A stretch of DNA of 41,593 bases from a virus. The stretch lies in IMG/VR virus record IMGVR_UViG_3300032893_000127, positions 1 through 41,593 of that record. One strand, 5' to 3'. Below, in pieces: positions 1,339 through 38,300 of this stretch. The first letter of the stretch is position 1, and each line of letters opens with the position of its first letter. The notes under the pieces were generated by a model that saw only the letters and a list, made by a program, of their open reading frames with translations, did no database searches and was not told where the DNA came from. Made by a program: the position numbers and the translations under genes.

Positions 1339-1344
1339 GACTCT

Positions 1345-1389
1345 AGTATAGCAAGCCGTCGCCTATCAGTTAGGACGTGGTGTGGATAA
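1345..1389 (-). promoter_or_regulatory. Promoter module P1 (-10, palindrome, DnaA-box)
   Basis: On the minus strand: TTATCCACA at 1389-1381, then a 30-base gap holding the palindrome variant GCAAGCCGTCGC (plus strand, 1351-1362), then TATACT at 1350-1345. The ATG of the 56-residue gene follows 6 bases later, so the transcript would be leaderless. No good -35 hexamer is visible. One of nine modules of the same design. Confidence 0.7.
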
Positions 1390-1390
1390 A

Positions 1391-1621
1391 TTATCCGTTG
1401 AGCCAGTCCGACTCCATGTCCTCAATGGCCTCGAGGACTTTCTGCACCGTCGCTTGCGGCATCTGCGCCGCGTTTGCGAGGAGCACGACGACCGCCTTCT
1501 TTCTTAGGCGACCGTTTAGGAGCGCGTGGACTTGGCGGGACAGCTTCGCTATCTCCTGCGCTATCGTCTCCACCCGTTCCTGTGCCTCCTTTTCCTCCTT
1601 CGTCTCTGGTTGTTTTGCCAT
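1391..1621 (-). CDS. Hypothetical helical protein
   Basis: 76 residues, predicted all-helical: charged N-terminus (KQPETKEEKEAQERVETIAQ), then LSRQVHALLNGRLRKKAVVVLLANAA and a C-terminal acidic helix. No family recognised. Its first 200 bases overlap the C-terminal frame of the NinB-like gene, an unusually long overlap (see that entry). The stop is immediately followed by promoter module P1. Confidence 0.65.
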   Translation of the reverse strand: MAKQPETKEEKEAQERVETIAQEIAKLSRQVHALLNGRLRKKAVVVLLANAAQMPQATVQKVLEAIEDMESDWLNG

Positions 1622-2084
1622 GACTTTTTGGTTGTGCTTTTAATGGCGCGAGGTCGAAGTTCTCCGTCGGTGGCGCTGCCACGCCGGTCTCCTCCTGCAC
1701 GTTCGCTATGAACTCGCAGAAGCCGCCGACCGTCAGCTCCGCCGTGCTCGCGCGTATGTAGCAGAGCTGGCCTTTGCTGTTGCGCCACTCTTTTATCGTG
1801 AGGAACTTGCGCGCCAGATCCTCGTGCGTCTCGAGTGCGCTGCCGCTGCCTTTGCCTGCCGCGAGTATTGCCGGCAGGTATACGCCCCACCAGTAGTTGT
1901 TCTGCGACTCGGTGCGCTTCGGCTTCCGGTTGGTGAGCGTGATCGACACCTCGTCGCCCACCTTGAACTTCGCCACCTCCGCGTCGTAGTAGAGCGGAGC
2001 CTTTATGGCGATCTTCTTCTTGCCGTTTACGAGCGTGACGCGGCCGGCGAAGTATCGACTGGTGTACGTGTAGGCCTTCCCCAT
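1422..2084 (-). CDS. NinB-like recombination protein (C-terminus uncertain)
   Basis: Start chosen at MGKAYTYTSRYFAGR. The central part resembles phage NinB/Orf recombination mediators: a beta-rich start, RTESQNNYWWGVYLPAI, a HEDLARKFL helix, and a late LTVGGFCEFIANVQEETG helix. Family knowledge: NinB helps load recombinases on single-stranded DNA. After about residue 150 the frame becomes low-complexity (Gly/Lys/Arg/Pro) and lies on top of the 76-residue gene at 1391..1621 for 200 bases. That tail may be spurious: an ATTAA run near 1640 would give a TAA stop in another frame if a single base were gained or lost. Confidence 0.5.
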   Translation of the reverse strand: MGKAYTYTSRYFAGRVTLVNGKKKIAIKAPLYYDAEVAKFKVGDEVSITLTNRKPKRTESQNNYWWGVYLPAILAAGKGSGSALETHEDLARKFLTIKEWRNSKGQLCYIRASTAELTVGGFCEFIANVQEETGVAAPPTENFDLAPLKAQPKSHGKTTRDEGGKGGTGTGGDDSAGDSEAVPPSPRAPKRSPKKEGGRRAPRKRGADAASDGAESPRGH

Positions 2085-2088
2085 ACGG

Positions 2089-2232
2089 TTACTTGAGACG
2101 CGCGAACACCTTTTTGACCCCTGCCTCCACGATCTCTGTGAGGCGTTGCTCGTGCTGGGCTTCCTCGATTGCATCGCGCACGACTGCCATCACACGCTTC
2201 TCAATCGTCCGGTCCCTGAATAGTCTTGCCAT
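2089..2232 (-). CDS. Small charged helical protein, first gene of operon P2
   Basis: 47 residues starting MARLFRDRTIEKR, with charged helices (DAIEEAQHEQRLTEIVEAG) and ending VKKVFARLK. Too short for the usual ORF cut-off, but it ends 4 bases before the NinB-like start and is the first ATG after promoter module P2. Unknown function. Confidence 0.55.
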   Translation of the reverse strand: MARLFRDRTIEKRVMAVVRDAIEEAQHEQRLTEIVEAGVKKVFARLK

Positions 2233-2263
2233 GTACCTTTTACGATTAACTTTTAATGAACTT

Positions 2264-2310
2264 ATTGTATAGCGAGTGGTCGCTATAGTCTACGCGGCAC
2301 GTGTGGATAA
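2264..2310 (-). promoter_or_regulatory. Promoter module P2
   Basis: Minus strand order: TTATCCACA (2310-2302), -35-like TAGACT (2292-2287), 17-base spacer containing the palindrome GCGAGTGGTCGC (2272-2283), then TACAAT (2269-2264, within TATACAAT). Leader of about 25 bases to the ATG at 2232. The box lies just downstream of the terminator of the preceding unit. Confidence 0.75.
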
Positions 2311-2338
2311 CAAAAGAACCCCGCCTTAGGTGGCGGGG
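2311..2338 (-). terminator. Rho-independent terminator
   Basis: Minus-strand hairpin CCCCGCC-ACCTAA-GGCGGGG (arms at 2338-2332 and 2325-2319) followed by TTCTTTTG. It closes the replication operon whose last gene ends at 2373, immediately before promoter module P2. Confidence 0.85.
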
Positions 2339-2372
2339 CAGGTCTCCGGCTGCATTGGGCATTCGCCGGTTT

Positions 2373-2573
2373 TCAGTGGCGCTTCATCCTCCATTGGAGG
2401 TAGCACGAGTCCTCGGGCTTGTCGCCGGGCTCCATCTTGCAAAAGAACCTTGCACCATTGGCGGTGCTTGCGACGGCTCGCTCGTCGCCGAGCCACGCTC
2501 CGCAGTTTGCGCATTGCACTCCGAGCTCCGGATTGCCGCCGTTAACGTGGTGAAGTGGCGTGGGCTGTACCAT
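2373..2573 (-). CDS. Small zinc-ribbon-like protein
   Basis: 66 residues from MVQPTPLHHV. It has four cysteines, as CxxC (CANC), FFC and a late DSC, consistent with a metal-binding site. No family recognised. The start overlaps the end of the upstream Cys-rich gene by 32 bases. It is the last gene before the terminator at 2311-2338. Confidence 0.65.
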   Translation of the reverse strand: MVQPTPLHHVNGGNPELGVQCANCGAWLGDERAVASTANGARFFCKMEPGDKPEDSCYLQWRMKRH

Positions 2574-2796
2574 TGTCGCCTCCGTTGGCTTGCTGTCTGC
2601 GGAAGGCGTGCCATGCGGTTTCGCTCGCCTTTTGCCGCTCGTATTCGATGACGCATTTGGATCCGCAGAGCGGTATCCCGTCGCGTACATGCGTAGCGTC
2701 CGCGAGGTCGAGCATCGTTCCGTACCTCGGGTTGCGCATATTGCACCAGCAATGCTCTTTCAAGGCACACCTCCTTTCCGGTTGGCCTTCACACAT
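2542..2796 (-). CDS. Cys-rich hypothetical protein
   Basis: 84 residues with six cysteines (MC, RRC, HCWC, LCGSKC), suggesting zinc binding, then a charged helix CVIEYERQKASETAW. No known family. It starts 15 bases after the PD-(D/E)XK nuclease gene. Confidence 0.6.
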   Translation of the reverse strand: MCEGQPERRCALKEHCWCNMRNPRYGTMLDLADATHVRDGIPLCGSKCVIEYERQKASETAWHAFRRQQANGGDNGTAHATSPR

Positions 2797-2811
2797 TCTA
2801 CACCCAGTCGT

Positions 2812-3267
2812 TCATAGGAACTTTTGCACCTTGGCGATAGCCTCTTTGAGATGCTGCACAGCGTGGTTCAGTTCTCGAGTGTCCTCGGTTGGCTGGCGTG
2901 GCGCCTGCTGTACGCCGTTGCTCGCATGCACGAGCCGGAGGAAGGTGTCGAGGTATATCGTCACTAACGTGCCCTCGTACGGGTCGTGTGGGAGCTTGAA
3001 CGCGAGGATAGGCTCGCGGCCGATGCTCTCCAGCTTCTTCGCCTGCCTCCACCATTCTGGTATCGCCACCGTCACCGTGTTCTTGCACTCGATGCCGGCG
3101 GCCTGCCCGAGCACTGTCATCGAGGTCGATATGTCGGCCTTTTCCCTGTTGCCGTTCCCGCTGCCGTTGCTGCGTCGCGCCTTCGGGTCGATGCCGAGCG
3201 CAACTATCTGGTCAGCGACGTAGTCCTCGAGTTCCTTTCCTTTTCGTATGGCGGAGGATGCTTTCAT
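2812..3267 (-). CDS. PD-(D/E)XK nuclease (Holliday-junction-resolvase-like)
   Basis: 151 residues. The nuclease core shows the expected order of residues: E12 in GKELED, D45 in EKADIS, and E60-C-K62 in AGIECKN. The next helix (PEWWRQAKKL) also fits. This is the PD-(D/E)XK arrangement of phage resolvases and VRR/RusA-independent endonucleases; the exact substrate is not determinable. Neighbours are RecA, a helicase loader and an initiator, supporting a role in replication or recombination. A coiled-coil-like tail ends the protein. ATGA overlap with the upstream 50-residue gene. Confidence 0.7.
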   Translation of the reverse strand: MKASSAIRKGKELEDYVADQIVALGIDPKARRSNGSGNGNREKADISTSMTVLGQAAGIECKNTVTVAIPEWWRQAKKLESIGREPILAFKLPHDPYEGTLVTIYLDTFLRLVHASNGVQQAPRQPTEDTRELNHAVQHLKEAIAKVQKFL

Positions 3268-3416
3268 GACTTCACTTTTTTGTAGAACGATAGCAGGCTC
3301 GGATCTTTGATGAGTTCGATGGTCGGGCTGGTGTTGAGCCGGTACCCGTAGTAGCTCGCGCCGCTCTTGCCGCGGATCTTCGTGCGCTGCAGGAGCCCTG
3401 GGTTTTCCTTCATCAT
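3264..3416 (-). CDS. Small hypothetical protein between recA and nuclease
   Basis: 50 residues (MMKENPGLLQRTKIRGKSG...), too short for the usual cut-off. The stop overlaps the nuclease start as ATGA, the coupling used throughout this operon. Basic, with GASYYGYRLN; unknown function. Confidence 0.6.
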   Translation of the reverse strand: MMKENPGLLQRTKIRGKSGASYYGYRLNTSPTIELIKDPSLLSFYKKVKS

Positions 3417-3449
3417 CGCGGAGCGAAGATCGCCTGCCGCATTGTCGGT

Positions 3450-4448
3450 TTATACCTCATAGCTTTTTTTGATGGCTTCGCGCAGCTCCTTCGCCACGTC
3501 GGGGTTCGCTTTCAGAAACTGCCGGCTCGCGTCGTATCCGCGGCCGAGCGTGCGGTCGTCGTACACGTATGCGTTGCCAGACTTCTTTAGCGCTCCTGCT
3601 GCCTCGCCGAGCACGAGCATCTCGCTCTCCGGAGAGATGCCCTCGCCGTAGATGATGTCGTATTCGGTGATCTTGAACGGGCTCGCCACCTTGTTCTTTA
3701 CCACCTTCGCCTTGATGCGCGCGCCGACGACGTCCTCGCCTTTCTTTATCGAACTCGTGCGGCGCAGGTCGATGCGGATAGTCGCGGCGTACTTGAGCGC
3801 GCGTCCGCCGCTCGTGGTCTCCGGCACCTGCCCGTTGGGGCTGTACGCGCCAATGTTGGTGCGGAGCTGGTTCACGAACACGAGGCAGGTGTTGGACTTC
3901 GAGATCTTGCCGGTGAGCATGCGCAGCGCCTGCGACATGAGGCGCGCCTGCCCTGCCATGTGCGCGTCGCCAATCTCGCCCTCGAGTTCCGACTTGGGAA
4001 TGATGGCGGCTACGGAGTCGAATACGACGACCGCGAGCTTGTGGCTCTCAATCATCGCCTCGGTTATCTTGAGCGCCTCCTCGCCGCCGGATGGCTGCGA
4101 GATGAGCAGCTTTTTTGTGTCGACACCGATCTTGCGGGCATATGCCGGATCCATCGCATGCTCGAGGTCGATGTATGCGCATGTCTCGCCTTCGCTCTGC
4201 GCCTGCGCCACCACGTGCAAGGCGAGCGTCGTCTTGCCGGTTGCCTCGGGGCCGTAGATCTCGGTGATGCGGCCGCGTGGCAGGCCTCCTATCCCGAGAG
4301 CGTGGTCGAGCCCGAGCGATCGCGTGGAGATTGCGCCGATGTCGACGGCGTTGTGGTCGTCGAGCATCATCACCGCGTCCTCTCCGAAGCGACTCTGCAG
4401 GTCGCGCATGAGTTCGTCGCCCACGTCTACTGTCTTTTTCTTGCTCAT
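3450..4448 (-). CDS. recA: RecA recombinase
   Basis: 332 residues from MSKKKTVDVG. Walker A is GPEATGKTT (66-74), where most RecA proteins have GPESSGKTT. The protein also has FDSVAAIIPK (Walker B region), MSQALRMLT, the NQLRTNIG loop (L2 region) and GGRALKYAA. It catalyses strand exchange on single-stranded DNA. It overlaps the helicase-loader gene by ATGA and is transcribed from the initiator promoter P3. Somewhat shorter than bacterial RecA (about 350), lacking much of the C-terminal acidic tail. Confidence 0.97.
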   Translation of the reverse strand: MSKKKTVDVGDELMRDLQSRFGEDAVMMLDDHNAVDIGAISTRSLGLDHALGIGGLPRGRITEIYGPEATGKTTLALHVVAQAQSEGETCAYIDLEHAMDPAYARKIGVDTKKLLISQPSGGEEALKITEAMIESHKLAVVVFDSVAAIIPKSELEGEIGDAHMAGQARLMSQALRMLTGKISKSNTCLVFVNQLRTNIGAYSPNGQVPETTSGGRALKYAATIRIDLRRTSSIKKGEDVVGARIKAKVVKNKVASPFKITEYDIIYGEGISPESEMLVLGEAAGALKKSGNAYVYDDRTLGRGYDASRQFLKANPDVAKELREAIKKSYEV

Positions 4449-4966
4449 TTGAGTCGGCGGTCCACGCCCTCTAGTTTGATAATCTCGCACATCTCCGCGA
4501 TGCGGCTCGAGATGCGGTCGCCGAGGCGCTCCGACATCTCGCCTAGCTCGAGGTTGCTGGTGATGATGGTCGGCAGCACTTCGCGGTACCGCTTGTCGAC
4601 GATCTTGAACATGGTCTCGCTCACCCAGTCGCTCGCCTTTTCCGCACCGAGGTCGTCGATGATGAGCACGCCCCGGTTGGCCAGTATCCGGTCGAGGTTG
4701 AAGCTGTCCTTGTGGTCGAAGTCGTCGCGGATCATGTCGAACATCTCGGGAGCGCTGTGTATGCGCACGGTGATGCCCATCTCGTAGAGGCGCTTCCGGA
4801 TCGCGTAAATCGTGTACGTCTTTCCGACGCCTATCGGGCCCCAGAGGTACAGACCCTTCCTCGTTTTGCGCACGTTCTCGATGATGTCGCGTATCTGCTG
4901 CGGGAGCGTCGAGAAGTCCGCATGCTCGAAGCGCTTAGGCGCGGGTGCTGGTTCCAACATTGTCAT
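4445..4966 (-). CDS. DnaC/IstB-like AAA+ helicase loader
   Basis: 173 residues. Walker A GPIGVGKT (43-50), Walker B GVLIIDDLGAEK, and sensor-1-like TIITSNLELGEM with an SRIAEM arginine motif. This is the minimal ATPase core of DnaC/DnaI-type loaders, which place a replicative helicase on the origin. No phage helicase is encoded here, so it probably recruits the host helicase (inference). It overlaps both the initiator gene (32 bases) and recA (ATGA). Confidence 0.9.
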   Translation of the reverse strand: MTMLEPAPAPKRFEHADFSTLPQQIRDIIENVRKTRKGLYLWGPIGVGKTYTIYAIRKRLYEMGITVRIHSAPEMFDMIRDDFDHKDSFNLDRILANRGVLIIDDLGAEKASDWVSETMFKIVDKRYREVLPTIITSNLELGEMSERLGDRISSRIAEMCEIIKLEGVDRRLK

Positions 4967-5681
4967 ATTTCGAGTTCTTTTTCTGCGCCGGCGCGATCTG
5001 GTCGTCCCAACGCTCGCCGTTAATCCACGTAGCCGGGTGGGGTATGTACCTTCCGTCGTCCTTCGACCATTGGGGACTCTTTTTCGCGGCGTCGAGGGCT
5101 GTCATGATCTTCGCGATGAGCTCGGGGGTGATGTCCACCTTCTGCCACGCCTTCCATGCGGCCTTTTTGCCGACCTTGTTGGGGTATTTTTCCCAGAAGG
5201 CGACGAAGGCATTGTCAGAAGTGAGCGTATTTGTATTATCTTTACTTTTCTTATCTTTACTTATCTTAAGCGGCGTTTTGGAACCCGTTTGGTTGCCACT
5301 TGGTTGCCCGATGGTTGACACAGGCGGAAAGTCGAATGATGGAGCCGGAATATGGCTCTCCCGGCGCCTGTCCTCGCGTATTTGTTGGTATTCCTCCCAT
5401 TTTGGGTGGAAGAAGTACTCCTCTCCGTCGACGTCGTACTTTACGACCAGTTTTTGTGCCTCTATTTCCTTGAGCCAGCGTGCCACGTCGGCTACTTTCA
5501 CGTCGTCGTCGTAGGGGAATATCTGGCTGCGGATTAGCGCAGCGCTTCCCTTAAGACGCCCGTCGTCGTCGCCGAGCGTTATCATGCCGATGTAGAGGAG
5601 ACGGCCTTCCTTCGAGAGGCGGGAAAACTGCCCGCTGGCCCATATCGTCGTGTGCACCATCCTCTTTTGTCCTGCGTTCAT
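4935..5681 (-). CDS. Replication initiator (O/DnaD-like)
   Basis: 248 residues from MNAGQKRM. The N-terminal winged-helix-like part (LSKEGRLLYIGMITLGDDDG, then DVARWLKEIEAQKL) resembles phage replisome organisers. A Lys/Asn/Thr-rich linker sits in the middle (about 130-155). The C-terminal part (AFWEKYPNKVGKKAAWKAW, then IPHPATWINGERW) is the common tail of phage O/DnaD-type initiators. The linker DNA contains iterons and an AT-rich stretch, as in lambda O, so the gene probably contains its own origin. First gene after P3; -10 ends 9 bases before the ATG. Confidence 0.8.
   Translation of the reverse strand: MNAGQKRMVHTTIWASGQFSRLSKEGRLLYIGMITLGDDDGRLKGSAALIRSQIFPYDDDVKVADVARWLKEIEAQKLVVKYDVDGEEYFFHPKWEEYQQIREDRRRESHIPAPSFDFPPVSTIGQPSGNQTGSKTPLKISKDKKSKDNTNTLTSDNAFVAFWEKYPNKVGKKAAWKAWQKVDITPELIAKIMTALDAAKKSPQWSKDDGRYIPHPATWINGERWDDQIAPAQKKNSKYDNVGTSTRA
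5236..5319. repeat. Putative replication origin: AT-rich repeats plus iterons
   Basis: Inside the initiator gene. TTATCTTTACTT occurs at 5236-5247 and 5251-5262 (15-bp period) with a partial third copy from 5261; this is a sharply AT-rich patch in GC-rich DNA and could be the unwinding element. Next to it are three 9-bp direct repeats: TTGGTTGCC at 5289-5297, TTGGTTGCC at 5300-5308 and ATGGTTGAC at 5311-5319. They have an exact 11-bp period, about one helical turn, as expected for initiator binding sites. Confidence 0.7.
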
Positions 5682-5690
5682 AGTTTTTTC

Positions 5691-5736
5691 ATTATACCAA
5701 CCCGTCGCCATTCGGCGAGTTGGAATGTGTGGACAA
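5691..5736 (-). promoter_or_regulatory. Promoter module P3 (replication operon)
   Basis: Minus strand: TTGTCCACA (5736-5728, one change from the DnaA box), 31-base gap, TATAAT (5696-5691), then 9 bases to the ATG at 5681, so at most a 2-3 base leader. Between them is a larger inverted repeat: GTCGCC (5704-5709) and GGCGAG (5714-5719) inside matching CCAAC/GTTGG flanks. Confidence 0.75.
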
Positions 5737-5739
5737 CCC

Positions 5740-6036
5740 CTAGAAGGGGATGTCGTCGGGGTTTATGTCCTCGGGAGGGTAGTCTGCCGCCGGTTCTTCC
5801 TCCGGCGCTTCTTCCTCGTCTCTGCGCTTTGGCTGCCACGTGTCGAGCTCGCAGTAGATCTTGCCGCCCTTGCTCTCCTTGATCTCGATGTTGATCCACT
5901 CCTTCTCGCCCTTGTGGTCGCCCAGCCATACGATGAACTCGTCGACCTTTATGGATAATGACCCCTTCACGTACGGCGGAGCCTTTGCCCTTGGCTCTTT
6001 GAAGATCAGGCCGTTGGTAAATATCTTTTCTGCCAT
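5740..6036 (-). CDS. SSB-like single-stranded DNA-binding protein
   Basis: 98 residues. An OB-fold-like beta-rich body (KGSLSIKVDEFIVWLG, EWINIEIKESKGGKIYCEL) is followed by an acidic tail ending DDIPF, the protein-interaction tip typical of bacterial SSB. The body is not a standard SSB sequence, so the call rests on the tail, the size and the neighbours (ERF annealase and a RecB-like nuclease). Expected role: coat single-stranded DNA and recruit partners. Last gene before promoter P3. Confidence 0.65.
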   Translation of the reverse strand: MAEKIFTNGLIFKEPRAKAPPYVKGSLSIKVDEFIVWLGDHKGEKEWINIEIKESKGGKIYCELDTWQPKRRDEEEAPEEEPAADYPPEDINPDDIPF

Positions 6037-6040
6037 GGTT

Positions 6041-6655
6041 TTAAGCTAGTCTTTTAAGTTGATGTCGATACTCTGCGTCAATCTCCCGGGCCACCCTATT
6101 GGCTAGAGACATATACTCAAGCACCTCGGTGAGGCCTATTTTCACGTGAAAACTCTGTATGTTTCCAGTGAAACGTACCCCTTCATCTCCCTCCTCGGTC
6201 TCTATGCAGTCCAGCCAGCACTCCGTAGGAAGTTTGCCGTATTTTAGATAGATCATTGTGGCGTAGTGGTGGAGTTGCGGATGTCGTTGCGCTTGCTTTT
6301 GCGTCCACATGTTTCTTGAAGTCTTGTACTCGCGGATCCGCAGCTTTTTCGGGTCGAATGTGTCCAGTTTTCCCAGAAGGTCAACCTCGCCATCCTTGGT
6401 CCGCATCGTGACCCGCATTTCATACTCACGCTCGCTGTAATGAGGCAGCAGTGCTAGTACGGCCTCCATGATGGCATCTCCTCCAGCTTCGCCTGTTTCG
6501 AGCGCCTCCGAGGTCTTTTTGCCGTGTTCTATGCCACTATTCGTGAAGGTTCGATCCTCTCCCATGATGTAATTCGCAATATAGCGCTGCTTGTTGCGAC
6601 GCCACATATCTATTTGCGTATACGAGAGGTAACCTCTCGGGTTTTTCAGCTTCAT
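6041..6655 (-). CDS. RecB/Cas4-like PD-(D/E)XK exonuclease
   Basis: 204 residues. It shows the RecB-nuclease signature: SYTQIDMW start, H44 in GIEHGKK, D98 in LGKLDTF, E109-Y-K111 in REYKTS, and Q127xxxY131 in PQLHHYA. No iron-sulphur cysteine cluster like that of Cas4 is evident. Located between the SSB-like and ERF genes, so likely the end-processing nuclease of a phage recombination system (inference). ATGA overlap with the HNH gene upstream. Confidence 0.8.
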   Translation of the reverse strand: MKLKNPRGYLSYTQIDMWRRNKQRYIANYIMGEDRTFTNSGIEHGKKTSEALETGEAGGDAIMEAVLALLPHYSEREYEMRVTMRTKDGEVDLLGKLDTFDPKKLRIREYKTSRNMWTQKQAQRHPQLHHYATMIYLKYGKLPTECWLDCIETEEGDEGVRFTGNIQSFHVKIGLTEVLEYMSLANRVAREIDAEYRHQLKRLA

Positions 6656-6924
6656 ACGAATTGTCCTTTTTTATTCTTTTCCCGGCCACCGTAATGGAGT
6701 TTTGCGTGCTTCGCCTGCGTCGTCACCTCGAGATTGCTAGGGTAGTTGTCCGATCTATCGCCGTTTTTGTGGTGCACGACCTCATCACGGCGCAAGGGTC
6801 GGCCGAGCATGTGCTCTGCGATAATGCGGTGTACGAGTTTGTAGCGAGCGCCCTTTGCGGATCTCGGTATAACGCCGCACCGCATCATGACGTAGCCGTC
6901 CTTGCGCCAGATGAAGCCTTTCAT
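6652..6924 (-). CDS. HNH homing endonuclease
   Basis: 90 residues with the phage HNH pattern LVHRIIAEHMLG, EVVHHKNGDRSDN, YPSNLEV. It is spliced precisely between ERF and the RecB-like nuclease, sharing 4-base overlaps with both (6652-6655 and 6921-6924). Likely a mobile free-standing homing endonuclease that exploits the operon's translation coupling. Confidence 0.85.
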   Translation of the reverse strand: MKGFIWRKDGYVMMRCGVIPRSAKGARYKLVHRIIAEHMLGRPLRRDEVVHHKNGDRSDNYPSNLEVTTQAKHAKLHYGGREKNKKGQFV

Positions 6925-7565
6925 GCGTTCTGCAGTTTTTCGATGCGCTCCTTGACCAGCGCCAGGAGTTCCTTCTTTTGGGCGGCGTTGAACGACCCTT
7001 TGCCGCTCGCGAGGTTTTCTTGGTACTCGAGCAGGCCGTCGACGTTGCGCGTCTGCTGGAGCATGCGCTTCGCGGTCTCAAACTTCTCGTCTGTGCTCCC
7101 AGCCGACTTGCCCTTCCCCTTGCTACCGCGCGTCTCCTCCGCGTCATCGCCGGTCTCGACGAGGAACTGCTTCGAGAGGACGTACTTGAGCGCCATCGTG
7201 TAGGCCTTCGGCGCGCCCTTGTCCTCGCCGTCTTGGCCGTAGCCGATGCCTACAGCGATGAGGAAGTCGGTCGGGTCCTTGATGTTGGTGAAGCGGAACT
7301 CGAACGTGAGCTTGGTGAGGAACTTCTGCGAGCCGCTCGAGCTCTGGCCGTGCGGTACCTCCTCCTCCTTCACGAGCGAGTGGGTGATCGCGAGTCCCTC
7401 CTTGCCGAGGAGCGGCTTCACCTCCGCGACTATGTCGCGCTCGCGCGCGAACTTGTACTTGAAGTGGTCGTTGTATCCGCCCTTGATCACCGTGTGGATC
7501 GCCTGCTGGATGTTGAACACCTTCTCGTAGACGTTCGCGCCTTTCGTCTTTTTTTCTTCTGCCAT
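6921..7565 (-). CDS. ERF-family single-strand annealing protein
   Basis: 214 residues from MAEEKKTKGA. The ERF core is visible: VFNIQQAIHTVIKGGYNDHFKYKFA, then VKPLLGKEGLAITHS, the central beta-rich LTFEFRFTNIKDP, and DKGAPKAYTMALKYVLSKQFLV. A linker and a helical C-terminal domain follow. ERF proteins anneal complementary single strands during phage recombination. First gene after promoter P4. Confidence 0.88.
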   Translation of the reverse strand: MAEEKKTKGANVYEKVFNIQQAIHTVIKGGYNDHFKYKFARERDIVAEVKPLLGKEGLAITHSLVKEEEVPHGQSSSGSQKFLTKLTFEFRFTNIKDPTDFLIAVGIGYGQDGEDKGAPKAYTMALKYVLSKQFLVETGDDAEETRGSKGKGKSAGSTDEKFETAKRMLQQTRNVDGLLEYQENLASGKGSFNAAQKKELLALVKERIEKLQNA

Positions 7566-7593
7566 GGTAATTTGATTAGTTTTTAATGAAGTC

Positions 7594-7631
7594 ATTGTAT
7601 CGCGTATGGCGAGCCGTCGCCATGTGGATAA
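7594..7631 (-). promoter_or_regulatory. Promoter module P4 (recombination operon)
   Basis: Minus strand: TTATCCACA (7631-7623), directly followed by the palindrome GGCGACGGCTCGCC (7621-7608), then TACAAT (7599-7594). Box-to-minus-10 gap is 23 bases here instead of 30-32. Leader of about 22 bases to the ERF ATG at 7565. Confidence 0.65.
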
Positions 7632-7817
7632 CTACCACTTCCTGAACCGGACCGTCACGTCCGGCGCGGCGAAGTACAGCACCACCCACGAGCCGCGTAT
7701 CTTGACCCCGTCGGCCTTTCGGCCCACTAGCGTCTCCACGTCCGCGATTGTGAGTCGTCTGAACGACACCGCCCGTTCCTTGCGCTCGCGAGGAGGCCTT
7801 GTCATTACGACGGTCAT
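7632..7817 (-). CDS. Small basic hypothetical protein
   Basis: 61 residues: Arg-rich start (TRPPRERKERAVSFRRLT), ADVETLVGRKADGVKI, then a beta-rich end (WVVLYFAAPDVTVRFRKW). No HTH that I can identify. The stop codon touches the DnaA-box motif of P4. Confidence 0.6.
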   Translation of the reverse strand: MTVVMTRPPRERKERAVSFRRLTIADVETLVGRKADGVKIRGSWVVLYFAAPDVTVRFRKW

Positions 7818-7818
7818 A

Positions 7819-8403
7819 TCATCGCGCGCTTATTACCTTCTCCTCGTAAACCTCCGCGCCCGGTACGCTCACGCCGGCCTTGAGGGCTTCGGTGATCTTC
7901 GCCATGTCGGGCATGAGGAACTCGCGCGGCAGCTTCGACTCGTCCGTCACGCGGTACTTTTTGATGATCTTCGTCGACACCTGCCCGACCTTGCCTGTGG
8001 TCGTCGTAGGCGCGGTGCCTATGTCGTCCATCTTCTGCACGGCCTTCTCCGTCGAGATCTTGCCGCTCTCGACCTGGTCGACGACCTTCGCCTTCGCCTT
8101 CGCGATGCGCTTGTCCTCGGCATCCTGCCAGTCGAGCATCTTGCCCTTGATGATCCGCTCTGCGTCTGCGAGATCTGCTTCCGGCTTCCGGAATAGTTCG
8201 CGTGCACTCGCGAGTGCTTCATTGAGCGGCTTGGTGATGGCCTCCTTGCGCTCCTTGAGGAGCTTCGCCACCTGTTTGATCTTCGACAGCACATCGGTCG
8301 CGTTCGTCATGTCTTCTTGCGATGCAATAGTGACACCAGTTGCAGTCGTGAGTGCTTTCGACGCTTGTTGCTTTACTATCGCTACATTTTTATCTTCGGA
8401 CAT
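7819..8403 (-). CDS. Coiled-coil protein of the recombination region
   Basis: 194 residues, mostly helical. Central heptad-like segments run from about 45 to 130 (LKERKEAITKPLNEALASA, KPEADLADAERIIKGKMLD). A Thr-rich linker (TAPTTTTGK) and a small C-terminal domain with KLPREFLMPDMAKITEALK follow. Similar proteins often accompany phage annealases; function unknown. The upstream HNH gene overlaps its start by 22 bases. Confidence 0.7.
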   Translation of the reverse strand: MSEDKNVAIVKQQASKALTTATGVTIASQEDMTNATDVLSKIKQVAKLLKERKEAITKPLNEALASARELFRKPEADLADAERIIKGKMLDWQDAEDKRIAKAKAKVVDQVESGKISTEKAVQKMDDIGTAPTTTTGKVGQVSTKIIKKYRVTDESKLPREFLMPDMAKITEALKAGVSVPGAEVYEEKVISAR

Positions 8404-8792
8404 ATTTTTCCTTTATTCCACGGAGTCCTGCCTTTGTTTGAACCGTCGTACAGCATGTGGCACGATCGGCAAAGTTGCCAGAAGTTTCTCCGCAGACGCT
8501 TATAATCTTTTCCCTTTCTAAGTGCCCAGTTGAAGTTTTTGCTTCGACCTGTGCACTTTCTCCTTTCGCACCGATTCGCCTTTCCATAGGTTCTTTGGAG
8601 CCAGAGATGTATACCGCCATATTTAATTTGGTCGCCATTCCACCGATGGTTTCGTTCTCCGCTGATCTTTCGGATCGTGCTAGCGGTGTGCCTTTTACCG
8701 ACGTGGGACAAACTCATCTTCAGTCTAGTTGCCGCAGAGTGAGATTGATGTTTGTACATTCCAGTCGTCATAGGTCTTCGTCTTCCTGTCAT
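8382..8792 (-). CDS. HNH endonuclease with NUMOD3-like region
   Basis: 136 residues. Residues about 18-50 resemble the nuclease-associated modular domain NUMOD3 (AATRLKMSLSHVGKRH, STIRKISGERN). The later part has a zinc/HNH-like FWQLCRSCHMLYDG. The start at 8792 is supported by an ATGA overlap with the 24-codon ORF upstream. Low GC relative to neighbours suggests a mobile gene. Confidence 0.75.
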   Translation of the reverse strand: MTGRRRPMTTGMYKHQSHSAATRLKMSLSHVGKRHTASTIRKISGERNHRWNGDQIKYGGIHLWLQRTYGKANRCERRKCTGRSKNFNWALRKGKDYKRLRRNFWQLCRSCHMLYDGSNKGRTPWNKGKICPKIKM

Positions 8793-8863
8793 TCTTCCTC
8801 TTCCTCAAAGTCGTCCTCCTCCTCGTCCCATTCGTTCTGGTCCAGCTCTCTTAGGCCTGCCAT
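8789..8863 (-). CDS. Possible 24-residue acidic peptide
   Basis: MAGLRELDQNEWDEEEDDFE plus four more Glu. ATG is 2 bases after the stop of the upstream membrane-protein gene, and the stop overlaps the next start as ATGA. The tight packing argues for translation; nothing else supports it. Confidence 0.4.
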   Translation of the reverse strand: MAGLRELDQNEWDEEEDDFEEEEE

Positions 8864-8864
8864 G

Positions 8865-9038
8865 TTAGTTGATGCAGACCTTTCCGGCCGACGTCATGAT
8901 GCCGCTGATGCCGCATCCGCTGTCGAGCCAGATGAGGTACACAATCCCGAGCACGAACAATGCAGCGAACACCAGAGGCGCGAGGCTGGGACGAGACCGA
9001 CGCTCCGTTTTCTTCTCTCTTAGATCAAGTACATTCAT
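8865..9038 (-). CDS. Small single-pass membrane protein
   Basis: 57 residues: charged N-terminus (MNVLDLREKKTERRSR), one hydrophobic segment (PLVFAALFVLGIVYLIWL), and a short outer tail with two cysteines. First gene after promoter P5. Unknown function; could be a small membrane effector or lysis-related protein, but it is not with the lysis genes. Confidence 0.65.
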   Translation of the reverse strand: MNVLDLREKKTERRSRPSLAPLVFAALFVLGIVYLIWLDSGCGISGIMTSAGKVCIN

Positions 9039-9076
9039 ATGGTTTTTATTTAAGCTCTAATATATCGACCATCGTT

Positions 9077-9121
9077 ATTATAGCGACCCCTCGCTATCTG
9101 TCCATAGAGTCATGTGGATAA
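9077..9121 (-). promoter_or_regulatory. Promoter module P5
   Basis: The cleanest module. Minus strand: TTATCCACA (9121-9113), -35 TGGACA (9104-9099), a 16-base spacer carrying GCGACCCCTCGC (9083-9094, plus-strand reading), -10 TATAAT (9082-9077). Leader about 32 bases to the ATG at 9038. Confidence 0.85.
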
Positions 9122-20527: not shown

Positions 20528-20537
20528 ACTTTCGTTG

Positions 20538-21404: not shown

Positions 21405-21413
21405 ACATACGCT

Positions 21414-21857
21414 TTAGCGGTACGCTACTGTGTAGTCTGCGCCAGTGCCGGTCGCAGATACGATAGTGAGTCCCGTTGCGAAGGTCACATCGTAGAAGAG
21501 CGACTGAACCTGCGCGGTCGTGTCGATCACCGCTATCACCGTGCCAGAGCCAGCGGTGTTGTCGTATACCGTGAGCGTATTCGACGAAGCGCCCTTTGTG
21601 TTGATTGAGAGGCAATGCAGGAAACCTGCACCACTCTTGACCGTCGTGGTCGCTGTACCTGCAGCGACATGCGCATAGCTGAATCGCTCCTCGGTTTTGA
21701 GTACGTTGTTTGTCAAGTCCTCTCCGGCGATGAGCGTAGCCATGGTCACCTTGCCGTTGGCGTTCACGTCGAGCGCAAGGCCTGCGCCTTCGCCGTCGTT
21801 GAGCGTGATGGCGTTGGCGTTGTACACGCCTGTGTAGCCGAAATATGTTCTTGCCAT
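21414..21857 (-). CDS. Small beta-rich structural protein
   Basis: 147 residues, Gly/Thr/Ala-rich strands throughout (NTLTVYDNTAGSGTVIAVID, TGLTIVSATGTGADYTVAYR). Looks like a virion surface or fibre-associated protein. No family recognised. Confidence 0.5.
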   Translation of the reverse strand: MARTYFGYTGVYNANAITLNDGEGAGLALDVNANGKVTMATLIAGEDLTNNVLKTEERFSYAHVAAGTATTTVKSGAGFLHCLSINTKGASSNTLTVYDNTAGSGTVIAVIDTTAQVQSLFYDVTFATGLTIVSATGTGADYTVAYR

Positions 21858-21862
21858 AGTGC

Positions 21863-22588
21863 TTAATTGCTATTTTGTAATCGCTCTCGGCGGATCTTTT
21901 CCGGAACGAAAGCCTCGTAGTAGCGGTGGACCAGCGCCTCTTTTTCGTCGAGAGCAGCCTGCCGCTTGTCGAGTTCCTCGCGCTCCTTTTCGTTCTGCTC
22001 GCGCTCGATGGTGTTGCGAGCCGCGATGCCGGAGAGCCTTTCATTATCAGCGGTCACTATCGACTGGTGCCGCTTTCGGTCCGTGTCGAGCTTCGCCTGC
22101 GCCTTGGCGAGTTCGACGCTCTTGGCGTTGTTCTCGGTCTCCACGCGCTTGACGACATCCTCCCTCTGCGAGACGTTTTCTTCGCGCTTTTTGAGCGCTT
22201 CGGCGTCTGCTTGGAGCTTGCGGTTGCCCTCGGCAAGGATTGCCTCGTTCTTTTCGAGGTTCTCCTCGCGTTTCGCCACCGCCACCATGCGCTCGTCTAC
22301 ATCCTTGCGGTCTCGGTCGATTGACTCGGCGAGAAGGTTGCGCTTTTTTGTGAGCGCGTCGATCTCGTTGTTGATCTCGAGCTTCCGCTTCTTTGCCGCC
22401 GACTCCACCTTGTCGAGATTGGCCGCGAGTTCCGCTTCCGCTTCCTCCACGGCCTGCCGTGTGAGGTTGAGGCTCTCGACGATGCGGGCTTCCACGGCAG
22501 CCAGTCCGATGGTGCGGCGCTGGCTGTCGAGCTGCTCGTCGCGGCGGTCGCTTGAGACCTTATTCGGTGTGAGCAGTTGGATACCCAT
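21863..22588 (-). CDS. Long coiled-coil protein
   Basis: 241 residues, almost one continuous coiled coil from about 40 to 215 (AEAELAANLDKVESAAKKRK, DERMVAVAKREENLEKNE, EREELDKRQAALDEKEAL). The short ends look globular. Placed between tail and head genes; could be a fibre shaft, an assembly scaffold or an internal protein. Cannot be narrowed from sequence. Confidence 0.65.
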   Translation of the reverse strand: MGIQLLTPNKVSSDRRDEQLDSQRRTIGLAAVEARIVESLNLTRQAVEEAEAELAANLDKVESAAKKRKLEINNEIDALTKKRNLLAESIDRDRKDVDERMVAVAKREENLEKNEAILAEGNRKLQADAEALKKREENVSQREDVVKRVETENNAKSVELAKAQAKLDTDRKRHQSIVTADNERLSGIAARNTIEREQNEKEREELDKRQAALDEKEALVHRYYEAFVPEKIRRERLQNSN

Positions 22589-33123: not shown

Positions 33124-33125
33124 GG

Positions 33126-34406: not shown

Positions 34407-34906
34407 ACCTGTTTGTGGGGCGCTGCTACGGCCTCGCGCAGGGCTTCGTTTGCTTTTGCAATGCCGGCAGCCAGCTCGGGCGTCATTGGTGTGTGGGTGA
34501 TCACTTCGCCCGACATCTCGACTTTGCTCTTGTTGGCGAACTCGTCGGTCATCTTGTGCTCGGCCCACCAACGAGCGCTGGCCTCGTTGTCGAGGTTTGC
34601 GACGAGCGTCTTTTGCGCGCGCAGGTCCGGCGTGAGCTTTAACATCTGTTTTCGGTCAATAAACTCTGGATGCTCTTTTTGGTAATTGTAGAGCGTTTGT
34701 TTTGAAATACCCGCGTAAGCACATGCTCTTTCGTCGCTCATTCCATAGCTAAAAGCGTCCTCGAGTTTCTGGACTGTCGTCGGCGTCATTACGGTGGGCC
34801 TGCCCTCGGGTCGCTTGGGGATTATCTCCTTGAATGCGATGCCGCGCGGACCCATGAAGTCCTTGACTCGTGATGGTTGTCCTGTTGTTATTAAGAGGTC
34901 TGTCAT
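34403..34906 (-). CDS. terS: Terminase small subunit
   Basis: 167 residues. A helix-turn-helix (TVQKLEDAFSYGMSDERACA, YAGISKQTLYNYQ) is followed by a helical oligomerisation region (LRAQKTLVANLDNEASARWW) and a tail (MTPELAAGIAKANEAL). This is the usual build of HTH-type TerS, which recognises the packaging site. It lies two short genes' distance upstream of TerL in the same operon. Confidence 0.75.
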   Translation of the reverse strand: MTDLLITTGQPSRVKDFMGPRGIAFKEIIPKRPEGRPTVMTPTTVQKLEDAFSYGMSDERACAYAGISKQTLYNYQKEHPEFIDRKQMLKLTPDLRAQKTLVANLDNEASARWWAEHKMTDEFANKSKVEMSGEVITHTPMTPELAAGIAKANEALREAVAAPHKQV

Positions 34907-35340
34907 AGAGTTTTGATGCGCTCAAGGACGTCTGCGGCCGTGTGGCCGTCCCACTCGGGTGCGCGGTCGTAGACTATTGCAAAGTCGGTGTCGTCCCATT
35001 TCTCATTGGAAAGGTGGTAGGTGAGCTGCTCACCGGCCTTTTCGCCTATGCCGAGCACGAACCACCCATCGAACGAGCTGCCGTCTGCGTGCTGGCGCGC
35101 GCGCCATATCGGCCGCTTGAAGCCTCCGTATGCCCCGAACGAGGCCTCTGCGAGGGTACGGCACAACGCGATCCACAGCTCGATGCGGTGCGCATAGAGC
35201 TCGTCCATCGTGTGGTATCCATCACTCACCTGCATGTCGTCCTCTCCTTCACACTTCTGGTCGATCAGGCGCCGTTCTCCCACTTTGTAAGGAGTTGTGA
35301 TTGATGTCTCGGCTGTGGTGATGTGGTAGGTCTTACTCAT
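34903..35340 (-). CDS. WDGH-domain protein, first late gene
   Basis: 145 residues from MSKTYHITT. Contains DGYHTMDELYAHRIELWIAL, a DGSSFDGWFVLGIG strand pair, QLTYHLSNEKWDD, and the closing APEWDGHTAADVLERI. That WDGH signature defines a small phage family of unknown function. The first gene after promoter P6; -10 ends 9 bases before the ATG. Confidence 0.75.
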   Translation of the reverse strand: MSKTYHITTAETSITTPYKVGERRLIDQKCEGEDDMQVSDGYHTMDELYAHRIELWIALCRTLAEASFGAYGGFKRPIWRARQHADGSSFDGWFVLGIGEKAGEQLTYHLSNEKWDDTDFAIVYDRAPEWDGHTAADVLERIKTL

Positions 35341-35349
35341 GGTATTTTC

Positions 35350-35395
35350 ATGATAGCACGAAGGCAAGCTGTCGCCATTCTTGGGGTGTGGATTA
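35350..35395 (-). promoter_or_regulatory. Promoter module P6 (late operon)
   Basis: Minus strand: TAATCCACA (35395-35387), 31-base gap holding GGCGACAGCTTGCC (35376-35363), -10 TATCAT (35355-35350), 9 bases to ATG at 35340. The box overlaps the stop of the methyltransferase gene. As far as I can see it is the only such module in front of 26 kb of structural and lysis genes. Confidence 0.7.
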
Positions 35396-36649
35396 CCAGA
35401 GCAGGGGCTCCCCGTTGCATTTTATCTCTCGGTTGCCAGTGTATTCTACCCATCGCTCGATGATGACGTCGACGTACTTCGGGTCGAGTTCCATGCCGTA
35501 GCAGAGGCGGTTGGTCTTTTGGCATGCGATGAGTGTGCTGCCGGACCCGAGGAATGGGTCTAGCACTATATCTTCTACCTTTGATCTATTGGCCAGTGCG
35601 TACATGATCAGCTCGACGGGCTTCTGTGTCGGATGAACGTAGTCGCTCACTGGTTCACGCTTCATTGTCCACACCGTGGTCTTGCCATTTTTCTCTGCCT
35701 CCTTTTGCTTTTTGACCCACGCCATGAGCTGCTGCTCTGTTTTAGTGAAGTCGATGATAGTGGTGTTGGTACGGTCACCGTAGAACAGCGGATCTTGTCC
35801 CTCTGCGCTGGCGTAGAGGAATGGCTCGTGCTTGCTGCGATAATCGCCAGCCCCAAGACCGCCCGAGGGTTTATTCCAGATGAGTTGGGAGCGGACCCGT
35901 ATGCCGTTTTGTTTGAGGGCGAACTCGAATATCGCCTGTGTTTTGTCCGAGTGGAAGATGTACATGCCGGCGCCAGCTTTTGTGTGCGCTTTCATGTGCC
36001 GGAAGGCATCGACGAGGAAGTCTGCAAACTTTGCCGACTCCATTTTGTCGTTCATGATGCCGTTCGAGGTGTTCTTGCCGCTGCCACTGTAGTTTACGTT
36101 ATACGGCGGATCAGTGAATATCATGTCGGCCTTGGTGCCGAGTAGGAGGACTGCGACATCTTTTTCGTCGGTCGAGTCGCCGCAGAAGATGCGGTGCGCG
36201 CCGAGTTGGTAGAGAGAGCCCCTTGAGCTCCTCGCGGTTGCCGGCACTGCCGGCACGTAGTCATCGCGCTCAGGGTTTTCGAGAACGAGGGAGCGATTGA
36301 AGCCGGTTAGGTCGAGCATGGGTAGAGAGAGCCCCTTGAGCTCCTGTATAACTAGGCTCATGTCCCAATCGCTCTCGTTGAGCTTGTTGTCGGCGAGTCG
36401 GTATGCGCGTGCTTTTTCTTCGTCGAGGTCAAGTTCAAGTACAGGCACTTCTTCGAGTGCGAGATAGCAGGCGGCTGCGTAGCGGCCATGCCCTACGATG
36501 ATAACTCCCTCACCGTCTACCACGATGGGTTGGTTGAAGCCAAATACTTCGATGGAGGCGGCTATTTTCTTTATCTGGTCGTCTGGGTGTTTTTTGGCAT
36601 TCTTACCGTAGGGAGTGATGGTGCCGAGTTTTCGTTGCTCTACCTTCAT
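35393..36649 (-). CDS. ParB-domain DNA methyltransferase fusion
   Basis: 418 residues. N-terminal ParB/sulfiredoxin-like domain (ITPYGKNAKKHPDDQIKKI, IVVDGEGVIIVGHGRYAAA). A methyltransferase follows, with IFTDPPYNVNY (DPPY at 180-183) and VLDPFLGSGST (364-372), a DPPY-first order typical of beta-class amino-methyltransferases. It would methylate adenine N6 or cytosine N4; the site is unknown. No restriction enzyme lies nearby, so it probably protects phage DNA from host restriction. Confidence 0.88.
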   Translation of the reverse strand: MKVEQRKLGTITPYGKNAKKHPDDQIKKIAASIEVFGFNQPIVVDGEGVIIVGHGRYAAACYLALEEVPVLELDLDEEKARAYRLADNKLNESDWDMSLVIQELKGLSLPMLDLTGFNRSLVLENPERDDYVPAVPATARSSRGSLYQLGAHRIFCGDSTDEKDVAVLLLGTKADMIFTDPPYNVNYSGSGKNTSNGIMNDKMESAKFADFLVDAFRHMKAHTKAGAGMYIFHSDKTQAIFEFALKQNGIRVRSQLIWNKPSGGLGAGDYRSKHEPFLYASAEGQDPLFYGDRTNTTIIDFTKTEQQLMAWVKKQKEAEKNGKTTVWTMKREPVSDYVHPTQKPVELIMYALANRSKVEDIVLDPFLGSGSTLIACQKTNRLCYGMELDPKYVDVIIERWVEYTGNREIKCNGEPLLW

Positions 36650-36658
36650 AGTGCTTTA

Positions 36659-36704
36659 ATGATACCACGTAAGCGACGGGTCGCTACGCTCTAATTGTGG
36701 ATTA
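36659..36704 (-). promoter_or_regulatory. Promoter module P7
   Basis: Minus strand: TAATCCACA (36704-36696), 31-base gap with the perfect palindrome AGCGACCCGTCGCT (36685-36672), -10 TATCAT (36664-36659), 9 bases to the ParB-methyltransferase ATG at 36649. Confidence 0.7.
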
Positions 36705-36708
36705 CTGG

Positions 36709-37575
36709 CTAGAAAAGAGGGTATGGAGTGCCTGCTATTCGCCTCTCTGCCAGCTTGATATACTCGGGATTGAGTTCGATGCCTAGGAACTTGCGCCCCA
36801 TCTTTTTGGCTACGACCGCCGTGGTACCGGCGCCCATGAACGGGTCGAGGATGATGCCACCTTTCGGACAGCCGGCGAGCACCATGGGCTCTATCAGCTC
36901 CTCGGGGAAGGTGGCGAAGTGCGCCTCTTTGTACGGAAATGTTGGGACACTCCACACGCTACGCTTGTTGGCCAGTCCGTCGCCGATGAGTGTGCCGTCC
37001 GGCCGGAAGTCTCCGCTGTGGCCGTGTAGACCGCTGCCGGTGATTGCAGCTCGCTTACCGGTTTTCATGGCCTTACGTCCTTGGTTCTTTTCGTTCGCCC
37101 ATCCGACTGCGGTGTGATCGGCGCCGTCGGCCCAGCCAGCAGGACGGCCGAGCAGATACCATCCAGCATTGCGTAGGCTGAATGCGAGCATCCATGGAAT
37201 GCCCACGAGGTCTTTTGATTTGAGTCCTCGCACTTTGTTGTTGAGCGCGGTGCCTTGGCCATTGCGGCCATTTTTGTATTTCGGATCGCGGTACTCGGCA
37301 TCCTTCGTTGTCTTGTTGCCCGTGCCGACGTAGCTATCTCCTATGTTGACCCAGCACGTACCGTTCTTTTTGAGCACGCGGCGGCATTCCTCAAAGACTG
37401 CCACCATGCCGGCTATAAACTCCTCCGGCGTTTTCTCGAGGCCGAGCTGGCCATCAATGCCGTAGTCGCGCAGTCCCCAGTACGGCGGGGATGTGATGAT
37501 GCAGTCGACGCTGTTGATCTCCAGAGTTTTGAGCGTTTCGAGTGCGTCGCCTTGCAAGATCGTATCCTCCGTCAT
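36709..37575 (-). CDS. DNA methyltransferase (SPPY type)
   Basis: 288 residues from MTEDTILQGDAL. IITSPPYWGLRDYG (SPPY at 29-32) and GIILDPFMGAGTT near the C-terminus, with FLGIELNPEYIKLAERR after it. SPPY is common in cytosine-N4 enzymes, but adenine-N6 cannot be excluded. A Gly/Lys-rich insert (about 100-170) probably forms the target-recognition region. ATGA overlap with the CAP-domain gene. Confidence 0.88.
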   Translation of the reverse strand: MTEDTILQGDALETLKTLEINSVDCIITSPPYWGLRDYGIDGQLGLEKTPEEFIAGMVAVFEECRRVLKKNGTCWVNIGDSYVGTGNKTTKDAEYRDPKYKNGRNGQGTALNNKVRGLKSKDLVGIPWMLAFSLRNAGWYLLGRPAGWADGADHTAVGWANEKNQGRKAMKTGKRAAITGSGLHGHSGDFRPDGTLIGDGLANKRSVWSVPTFPYKEAHFATFPEELIEPMVLAGCPKGGIILDPFMGAGTTAVVAKKMGRKFLGIELNPEYIKLAERRIAGTPYPLF

Positions 37576-37937
37576 GATGCGAACTCTTCGACTGTCACGC
37601 CGCAGGCATTCCCGATGCCGATGCGGCTGTAGTGGACGTCGAGGATGTTGTCTCGGTGCTCGGGAGAGGCCATGAGTGCGGCATTGGTGCTGGTCGCGTC
37701 CGGAAAGCCCTCCGCGAGGTTTTCTCCGATGTAACCGGATATGCCCTGCATCCAGTTGGTCCACTCCGATGGCGTACCGTAGGTGCCGTGCGAAAAGGGG
37801 TGCGTGCAGAGATATTGCGCCCTGCTCTGCGCGCGCTGCGATATATCCGCGCTGTACACGAGGGGCTGCAGATGCGGCACCGTTGCCCTATCCGCGTTTG
37901 TAAGGAGGAGCATCGCGATGATTATTGCCGTGTTCAT
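37572..37937 (-). CDS. Secreted CAP/SCP-domain protein
   Basis: 121 residues from MNTAIIIAMLLLTNADR, a signal-peptide-like start. The CAP fold motifs are clear: SRAQYLCTHPFSHGTYG, GYIGENLAEG, LMASPEHRDNIL, and a closing IGIGNACG. Family knowledge: CAP proteins are secreted and bind lipids or act extracellularly, with variable activity. A CAP protein translationally coupled to a DNA methyltransferase in a phage is unusual. Role unknown; cell-envelope modification or exclusion is possible. Confidence 0.85.
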   Translation of the reverse strand: MNTAIIIAMLLLTNADRATVPHLQPLVYSADISQRAQSRAQYLCTHPFSHGTYGTPSEWTNWMQGISGYIGENLAEGFPDATSTNAALMASPEHRDNILDVHYSRIGIGNACGVTVEEFAS

Positions 37938-37946
37938 AGTATCTTC

Positions 37947-37992
37947 ATTATAGCGACGGCTCGCCATGTGTCCAGTCCCGCTTTGTGGATAA
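37947..37992 (-). promoter_or_regulatory. Promoter module P8
   Basis: Minus strand: TTATCCACA (37992-37984), -35 TGGACA (37974-37969), 16-base spacer containing GCGAGCCGTCGC (37964-37953), -10 TATAAT (37952-37947), 9 bases to the ATG at 37937. Same layout as P5. Confidence 0.85.
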
Positions 37993-38000
37993 CTTCACAC

Positions 38001-38255
38001 CTATCCCTTCACAGCATAATAGCGTCCATTTCTTGTTCCGCGCCCCTGAAATTGCTCGGCTAAATCCTCAATGTCTTTCTGTGGAAGTTCCACTGGATTG
38101 ATTTTGTTGATGAACGCTTTTGCTGTTCGGAGCGACAAAAAACCGCTATTCCAAGCCACCATTATGCCTGTCATTTTTCGGCATACGCAATACTCTCCCC
38201 ACTTATTCAGGTAGATGCGGAAATTGTTGTAGATGATTTCAGTGTCGGGCTTCAT
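38001..38255 (-). CDS. Hypothetical protein
   Basis: 84 residues. Beta start (EIIYNNFRIYLNKWGEYCVC), GFLSLRTAKAFINKINP, and a basic end (RGTRNGRYYAVKG). No family recognised. It follows a -10 box by 6 bases, so its mRNA would be leaderless. Confidence 0.65.
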   Translation of the reverse strand: MKPDTEIIYNNFRIYLNKWGEYCVCRKMTGIMVAWNSGFLSLRTAKAFINKINPVELPQKDIEDLAEQFQGRGTRNGRYYAVKG

Positions 38256-38261
38256 AGGGTA

Positions 38262-38300
38262 ATTATACCAATTAGGTTGTCAGGGGATAGGCATGGATAA
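38262..38300 (-). promoter_or_regulatory. Promoter module P9 (degenerate)
   Basis: Minus strand: TTATCCATG (38300-38292), 24-base gap, -10 TATAAT (38267-38262), 6 bases to ATG at 38255. The GCGA-N4-TCGC palindrome is absent here. Sits directly after the tRNA. Confidence 0.55.

Follow-up and report, generated by a model that had tools for sequence, protein, structure and literature searches.

Single DnaA-type boxes mark a set of phage promoters

Why should a DnaA-type box recur at a fixed distance upstream of phage genes? We address this question in the record IMGVR_UViG_3300032893_000127, a 41.6 kb virus contig analysed over its whole length (41,593 nucleotides, nt; hereafter the window), for which a preliminary description made from the letters alone had listed nine minus-strand boxes, TTATCCACA or a close variant, ahead of -10 elements. 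All nine lie where they had been placed, and the gaps to the -10 are as claimed (30, 32, 31, 23, 30, 31, 31, 31 and 24 nt, from the box at 1381 to that at 38292). Judging from the sequences compared here, we consider it fairly likely that these are two-part promoters, in which the box would be read for activation by host DnaA, or by a protein of equal specificity, and a phage palindrome would provide control. This reading draws on sequence architecture, spacing, conservation, co-occurrence, presence in host genomes and target classes, all of which are observed here.

Within the window itself, the signal lies in the combination of box and spacing. Defining a site as a box with at most one mismatch to TTATCCACA, a gap of 28-33 nt and a TATAAT-like -10 with at most one mismatch, we counted 7 sites, compared with a mean of 0.015 and a maximum of 1 in 200 dinucleotide shuffles, and with 0.08 expected from permuted boxes (the short-gap site at 7623, at 23 nt, is an eighth that falls outside this count). 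The spacing is specific, since boxes of this type yield 0 or 1 sites when the gap window is shifted. All five exact boxes of the window sit at these promoters, and the seven one-mismatch words found away from them are close to the chance number; in the rest of the window the motif does not reach the same frequency, and its enrichment at a fixed spacing holds against shuffled sequence. The palindrome pattern [GC][CG][GA]A-N4-T[CTA]G[CG], placed no more than 12 nt from a minus-strand -10, occurs at the eight promoters and one other site. Because the palindrome alone is not over-represented (30 found, 50 expected), it is its conjunction with the -10 that matters.

Close inspection of the individual promoters refines the picture. 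Five boxes match TTATCCACA exactly (1381, 2302, 7623, 9113 and 37984), three carry one mismatch (5728, 35387 and 36696) and the last, TTATCCATG at 38292, carries two. Eight members of the nominated set are solid; the ninth, at 38292, is doubtful, combining two mismatches with a gap of 24 nt and no palindrome, and a tRNA-Met gene has its 3' end only 3 bp away. The palindrome reported between box and -10 is indeed present at eight promoters, with the qualification that at 7623 it abuts the box and not the -10. An immediate ATG, described for the whole set, applies to six of the nine, where it begins 6 or 9 nt after the -10 and the transcripts are therefore probably leaderless; at 2302, 7623 and 9113 the likely start codon lies about 25-40 nt downstream, leaving short leaders. 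A TATAAT-like -10 close upstream of the start codon, a sigma-70 feature, is present; the -35 element is weak in the window, and TTGAC- is present in the phage relatives. The box promoters are confined to the non-structural part of the window (1381-9113 and 35387-38292), with none in the structural genes at about 9.6-34.9 kb. The elements and the genes that they precede are as follows.

1381-1389, minus strand: promoter 1 box TTATCCACA; -10 TATACT at 1345-1350; gene 1168-1338 (56 amino acids, aa)
1351-1362, minus strand: promoter 1 palindrome GCGACGGCTTGC, a putative phage operator
2302-2310, minus strand: promoter 2 box TTATCCACA; -10 TACAAT at 2264-2269; leads into 2089-2232 and 1422-2174
2272-2283, minus strand: promoter 2 palindrome GCGACCACTCGC
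5728-5736, minus strand: promoter 3 box TTGTCCACA; -10 TATAAT at 5691-5696; phage replication initiation protein, 4935-5681
5697-5708, minus strand: promoter 3 imperfect palindrome GCGACGGGTTGG
7623-7631, minus strand: promoter 4 box TTATCCACA, short-gap class (23 nt); -10 TACAAT at 7594-7599; ERF recombinase, 6921-7595
7609-7620, minus strand: promoter 4 palindrome GCGACGGCTCGC, abutting the box
9113-9121, minus strand: promoter 5 box TTATCCACA; -10 TATAAT at 9077-9082; gene 8865-9038
9083-9094, minus strand: promoter 5 palindrome GCGAGGGGTCGC
35387-35395, minus strand: promoter 6 box TAATCCACA; -10 TATCAT at 35350-35355; WDGH-domain gene, 34903-35340
35364-35375, minus strand: promoter 6 palindrome GCGACAGCTTGC
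36696-36704, minus strand: promoter 7 box TAATCCACA; -10 TATCAT at 36659-36664; ParB-methyltransferase gene, 35393-36649
36673-36684, minus strand: promoter 7 palindrome GCGACCCGTCGC
37984-37992, minus strand: promoter 8 box TTATCCACA; -10 TATAAT at 37947-37952; CAP-domain gene, 37572-37937
37953-37964, minus strand: promoter 8 palindrome GCGAGCCGTCGC
38292-38300, minus strand: doubtful ninth box TTATCCATG, gap 24 nt, no palindrome; -10 TATAAT at 38262-38267; gene 38001-38255

The architecture recurs in diverged relatives

Related phages were gathered by a methyltransferase search followed by capsid alignment. The capsids of three of them (G636, G637 and G638) are 77-80% identical, and most other shared proteins are 25-65% identical. 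The spacing, whose loss in relatives would have told against the preliminary description, is kept together with the architecture, box, palindrome and -10 recurring at orthologous genes: three genes retain the box, and two or three of these retain the palindrome as well. L231, L007 and G637 all have the box promoter of the 56-aa gene, the G637 copy with a changed palindrome, and a G637 box promoter at 5274 stands ahead of its relative of 1422-2174. The orthologue of the replication gene in G637 has the box TTATGCACA with a gap of 32 nt, and the ERF gene has a short gap in both phages (23 nt in the window; 22 nt in G637, with the box TTATCCACT). Across 21 family sequences, 17 of the 29 sites that combine palindrome and -10 carry a box, compared with 0.14 expected from permuted boxes. 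An independent route, in which all viral contigs were scanned for palindrome and -10 with the box ignored, led to L436/L437, L439, L097, L104 and L442, whose sites carry the box at about 31 nt.

These results bear directly on the possibility that, in a GC-rich phage, an AT-rich DnaA-like word and a palindrome came to stand before -10 boxes by accident. Given the 7 sites against 0.015 in shuffles and their retention across diverged genomes, this explanation is refuted for eight of the nine sites and is, for the set as a whole, extremely improbable; it could apply only to 38292, with its two mismatches and missing palindrome.

The 56-aa gene at 1168-1338 stands behind the most conserved box promoter. 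Its product and relatives are small basic proteins with invariant G-x2-GG, G and G-x2-GA-x2-RW residues.

The box is a promoter element of Patescibacteria

The box is a promoter element of Patescibacteria, common to several unrelated phages. A scan of 84,980 species genomes for TTATCCACA-N26-30-TGGTATAAT returned mostly Patescibacteria; among the 80 loci listed, assigned by title, 47 are Patescibacteria, 14 are labelled "bacterium" or "uncultured bacterium" and 19 are scattered over other groups. Host counts were then obtained for TTATCCACA-N12-42-TATAAT with the reversed pattern as control, as sums of tabulated results. They gave about 218 matches versus 21 reversed in the class to which G007, a Magasanikbacteria genome, belongs (144 genomes) and about 383 versus 10 in that of G002, a Yonathbacteria genome (142 genomes), an excess over control in Patescibacteria of about 10 to 40 times. 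Among the 150 matches listed, the most frequent gaps are 22-23, 31 and 39-41 nt for the former class; for the latter the peak is at 30 nt, with smaller ones near 22 and 40-42. These steps correspond to about one helical turn, as expected for a protein that must face RNA polymerase, and the window gaps of 23-24 and 30-32 nt belong to the same spacing classes.

The phasing also bears on whether the box could be a negative or titration site, the phage boxes sequestering DnaA to halt host replication, or bound DnaA repressing the promoter until removed. DnaA does repress several E. coli promoters (PMC11317965), and there are many boxes per phage genome. Titration, however, needs no fixed spacing, yet the boxes are phased at about 22, 31 and 40 nt, and they lie upstream of the -35, an activator position; we regard this explanation as quite unlikely.

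The host promoters carry a canonical -35 TTGACA at 14-20 nt. In unbiased stretches of five genomes the boxes sit on a minority of promoters and are mostly intergenic, and no intergenic box was seen in the stretch read from two of the five. The box as a universal promoter element of Patescibacteria was rejected, as most host promoters in these five genomes are TTGACA-17-TATAAT without a box.

Among the genes that follow 75 host box promoters, 15 encode mechanosensitive channels, 11 encode type IV pilins and 6 encode ribonucleotide reductases (RNRs). When 30 genes of each kind were taken in a gene-centred test, box promoters stood before 16 of the channel genes, 8 of the RNR genes and one of the recA genes, whereas permuted boxes gave 0.15, 0.23 and 0.03, respectively (the channel result is not wholly independent, because some of the genomes also fed the 75-promoter list). 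Genes for mechanosensitive-channel-like membrane proteins (L462-L491) are the commonest target of the Patescibacteria box promoters. In a Patescibacteria genome, four boxes are clustered at L363:79-234 (G215, about 60 kb) upstream of mraZ-rsmH-ftsL-ftsI (named by eye from translations), which may hint at a DnaA link of division genes.

Viral contigs yielded 53 carriers of TTATCCACA-N26-30-TGGTATAAT, compared with 16 for a scrambled box. Of the records reached in this way, G640 has 14 box promoters and G639 has 5, in both cases without the palindrome; these tailed phages have different terminases and almost no proteins in common with the window. TTATCCACT is a common phage variant of the box. 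The idea of a phage regulon survives in part: a conserved box element does mark a set of phage promoters, but the box is not phage-only and the palindrome alone is specific to the family. Five box promoters of another viral record, G643 (89 kb), have in common a TTGACAAGTRAR-like stretch following the box, which may be a further phage-specific operator.

The palindrome is a candidate phage operator

The palindrome occurs 23 times in 0.63 Mb of the phage family and 5 times in 1.9 Mb of hosts, whereas scrambled-arm controls gave 0 and 0-3, respectively. Being enriched in the phage family and not clearly in the hosts, it is probably bound by a phage-encoded protein; a role as host operator is not supported. 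The same palindrome stands at several promoters and overlaps RNA polymerase contacts, as in an operator set. As a candidate binder we considered the 56-aa product of 1168-1338, for which the prediction, a single helix, was uninformative.

RNR promoters of Patescibacteria (L528, L531, L535 and L545) have a DnaA-type box and, beside the -10, an NrdR-like repeat (recognized by eye). This repeat takes the place of the phage palindrome, which suggests a common design of an activating DnaA-type box with a gene-specific operator near the -10.

A model for activation and control

Based on these observations, we propose that the eight solid sites would act as two-part early-region promoters of a tailed phage. 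The first part would be one DnaA-type box, with its centre near -47 and a little way upstream of the weak -35, where host DnaA or a host protein of like specificity, bound on the helix face that reaches RNA polymerase, would stimulate initiation; the box would be the host's own mark on a gene set, taken over by the phage. The second part would be the phage-family palindrome, S-C-R-A-N4-T-Y-G-S, mostly abutting the -10, on which a dimeric regulator, most likely a phage-made repressor, would sit to shut the promoters in turn. Transcripts would mostly start at the ATG or within a few bases of it. Activation, the identity of DnaA, the repressor and the transcription start sites are the predicted parts of this scheme. 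On a broader scale, we see about an even chance that in much of Patescibacteria the replication initiator DnaA also serves as a general activator of a defined promoter set (RNRs, mechanosensitive channels, pilins and division genes), using boxes that are single and helically phased, and that several unrelated phages have adopted this switch, tying their expression to the host replication state.

On sequence grounds the factor at the box is probably DnaA. TTATCCACA is the exact nine-base DnaA consensus, the DnaA C-terminal domain was found in nine of ten Patescibacteria genomes, and the canonical signature RDHTT/RDHST is present in all four genomes where it was read. RNR genes are DnaA targets in E. 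coli (PMC11317965). What stands of the gating by host DnaA, or by a phage protein acting at that site, first suggested for the window is the activator-positioned DnaA-box-like element, with DnaA as the candidate reader. A cluster of boxes of the kind expected for an oriC next to dnaA was also sought, and few boxes lie within about 1.5 kb of the DnaA domain match in host genomes.

Several observations weigh against this model. Mechanosensitive channels and pilins do not, to our knowledge, belong to the classic targets of DnaA, and nothing obvious marks TTATCCACT, frequent among phages, as a sequence that DnaA prefers. The host genome G276, with 11 box matches, yielded no DnaA C-terminal domain, although it may be incomplete. 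At nearly all of its sites E. coli DnaA requires a pair of boxes separated by 2-3 bp (PMC11317965), a rule established for E. coli only; no second box was seen in the flanks of 85 host promoters, which show only an AG before the box. Within the phage family, the G636 orthologue of 1168-1338 has the palindrome without the box, and two members, G653 and G660, lack any such promoter; because some members have few or no sites, the use of the switch varies in the family. No repressor gene, including none of helix-turn-helix type, was found, and capsid alignment gave no prophage or capsid match in 380 Patescibacteria genomes, a search that had no positive control and so shows little.

The single boxes, the conserved AG flank, targets such as channels and pilins, and the box-rich G276 would also suit a different Patescibacteria transcription factor that reads AGTTATCCACAG, its likeness to a DnaA box reflecting convergence or shared ancestry of the binding domain. 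Against such a factor stand the exact match of the box to the DnaA consensus, the canonical DnaA domain IV of the host genomes, the presence of RNR genes and the four-box cluster before mraZ-rsmH-ftsL-ftsI among the targets, and the tolerated variants, which include TTATACACA, TTATGCACA and TTGTCCACA. We consider it unlikely, and DnaA remains our preferred candidate.

Comparison with known systems

Several described systems share features with the proposed promoters. Phage lambda pR is stimulated by host DnaA through boxes downstream of one promoter; the likeness lies in a phage promoter responding (here by prediction) to host DnaA, but in the window each of eight promoters has its own box, which lies on the upstream side at a fixed spacing. 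Class II activator-dependent sigma-70 promoters have, like those in the window, a site just upstream of the -35 (centred at about -47), helical phasing and a weak -35, although here the candidate factor is a replication initiator. The DnaA-regulated promoters of E. coli (nrdA, nrdD and polA; PMC11317965) have the same nine-base box and RNR genes among their targets. In contrast to the E. coli sites, which are paired and few (16 bound regions by chromatin immunoprecipitation with sequencing; PMC11317965), the boxes described here are single, lie at phased distances and occur at several promoters in some Patescibacteria genomes and phages. NrdR-controlled RNR promoters offer a further parallel, since in Patescibacteria the NrdR-like repeat of RNR promoters stands where the phage has its palindrome, although the palindrome differs from it in sequence.

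A literature search, which was not exhaustive, found no description of DnaA-box promoters in Patescibacteria or of a phage regulon of this form. The results offer a testable promoter code, with a candidate global regulator and regulon, for Patescibacteria and their phages, mostly uncultured organisms whose transcription control is little known, and the box signature could help to link orphan phages with hosts in Patescibacteria. Should DnaA prove to be the factor, these promoters would clearly exemplify early phage transcription coupled to the replication initiator of the host.

The phage and its probable host

The window comes from a tailed phage that probably infects an uncultured member of Patescibacteria. 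Its identified genes, all on the minus strand, include those for a terminase, a major capsid protein, two DNA methyltransferases, GroEL, GroES and RecA, as well as the ERF recombinase, the replication initiation protein and an IstB-like ATPase. The contig L231, from a Patescibacteria metagenome-assembled genome, has relatives of six window genes (GroES and GroEL among them) and the same promoter of box and palindrome. A Patescibacteria host is likely because of these relatives and this promoter, together with the phylum bias of the box; the placement of L231 may be a binning error.

Other searches for relatives were less productive. The first 25 kb of the window had no match among phages by megablast, and neither the 506-aa protein (20524-22044) nor RecA found relatives in genomes. 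Terminase and RecA queries reached only distant viral contigs, and a methyltransferase search in the 380 Patescibacteria genomes was uninformative, the family being widespread.

Finally, the window has two GroES-like genes, at 277-585 and 41199-41507, one near each contig end. The cause of this end repeat is either that the gene was duplicated or that the assembly was affected by a repeat. The DNA around both genes is >90% identical over about 350 bp, and the final 127 bases of the contig equal positions 545-671.

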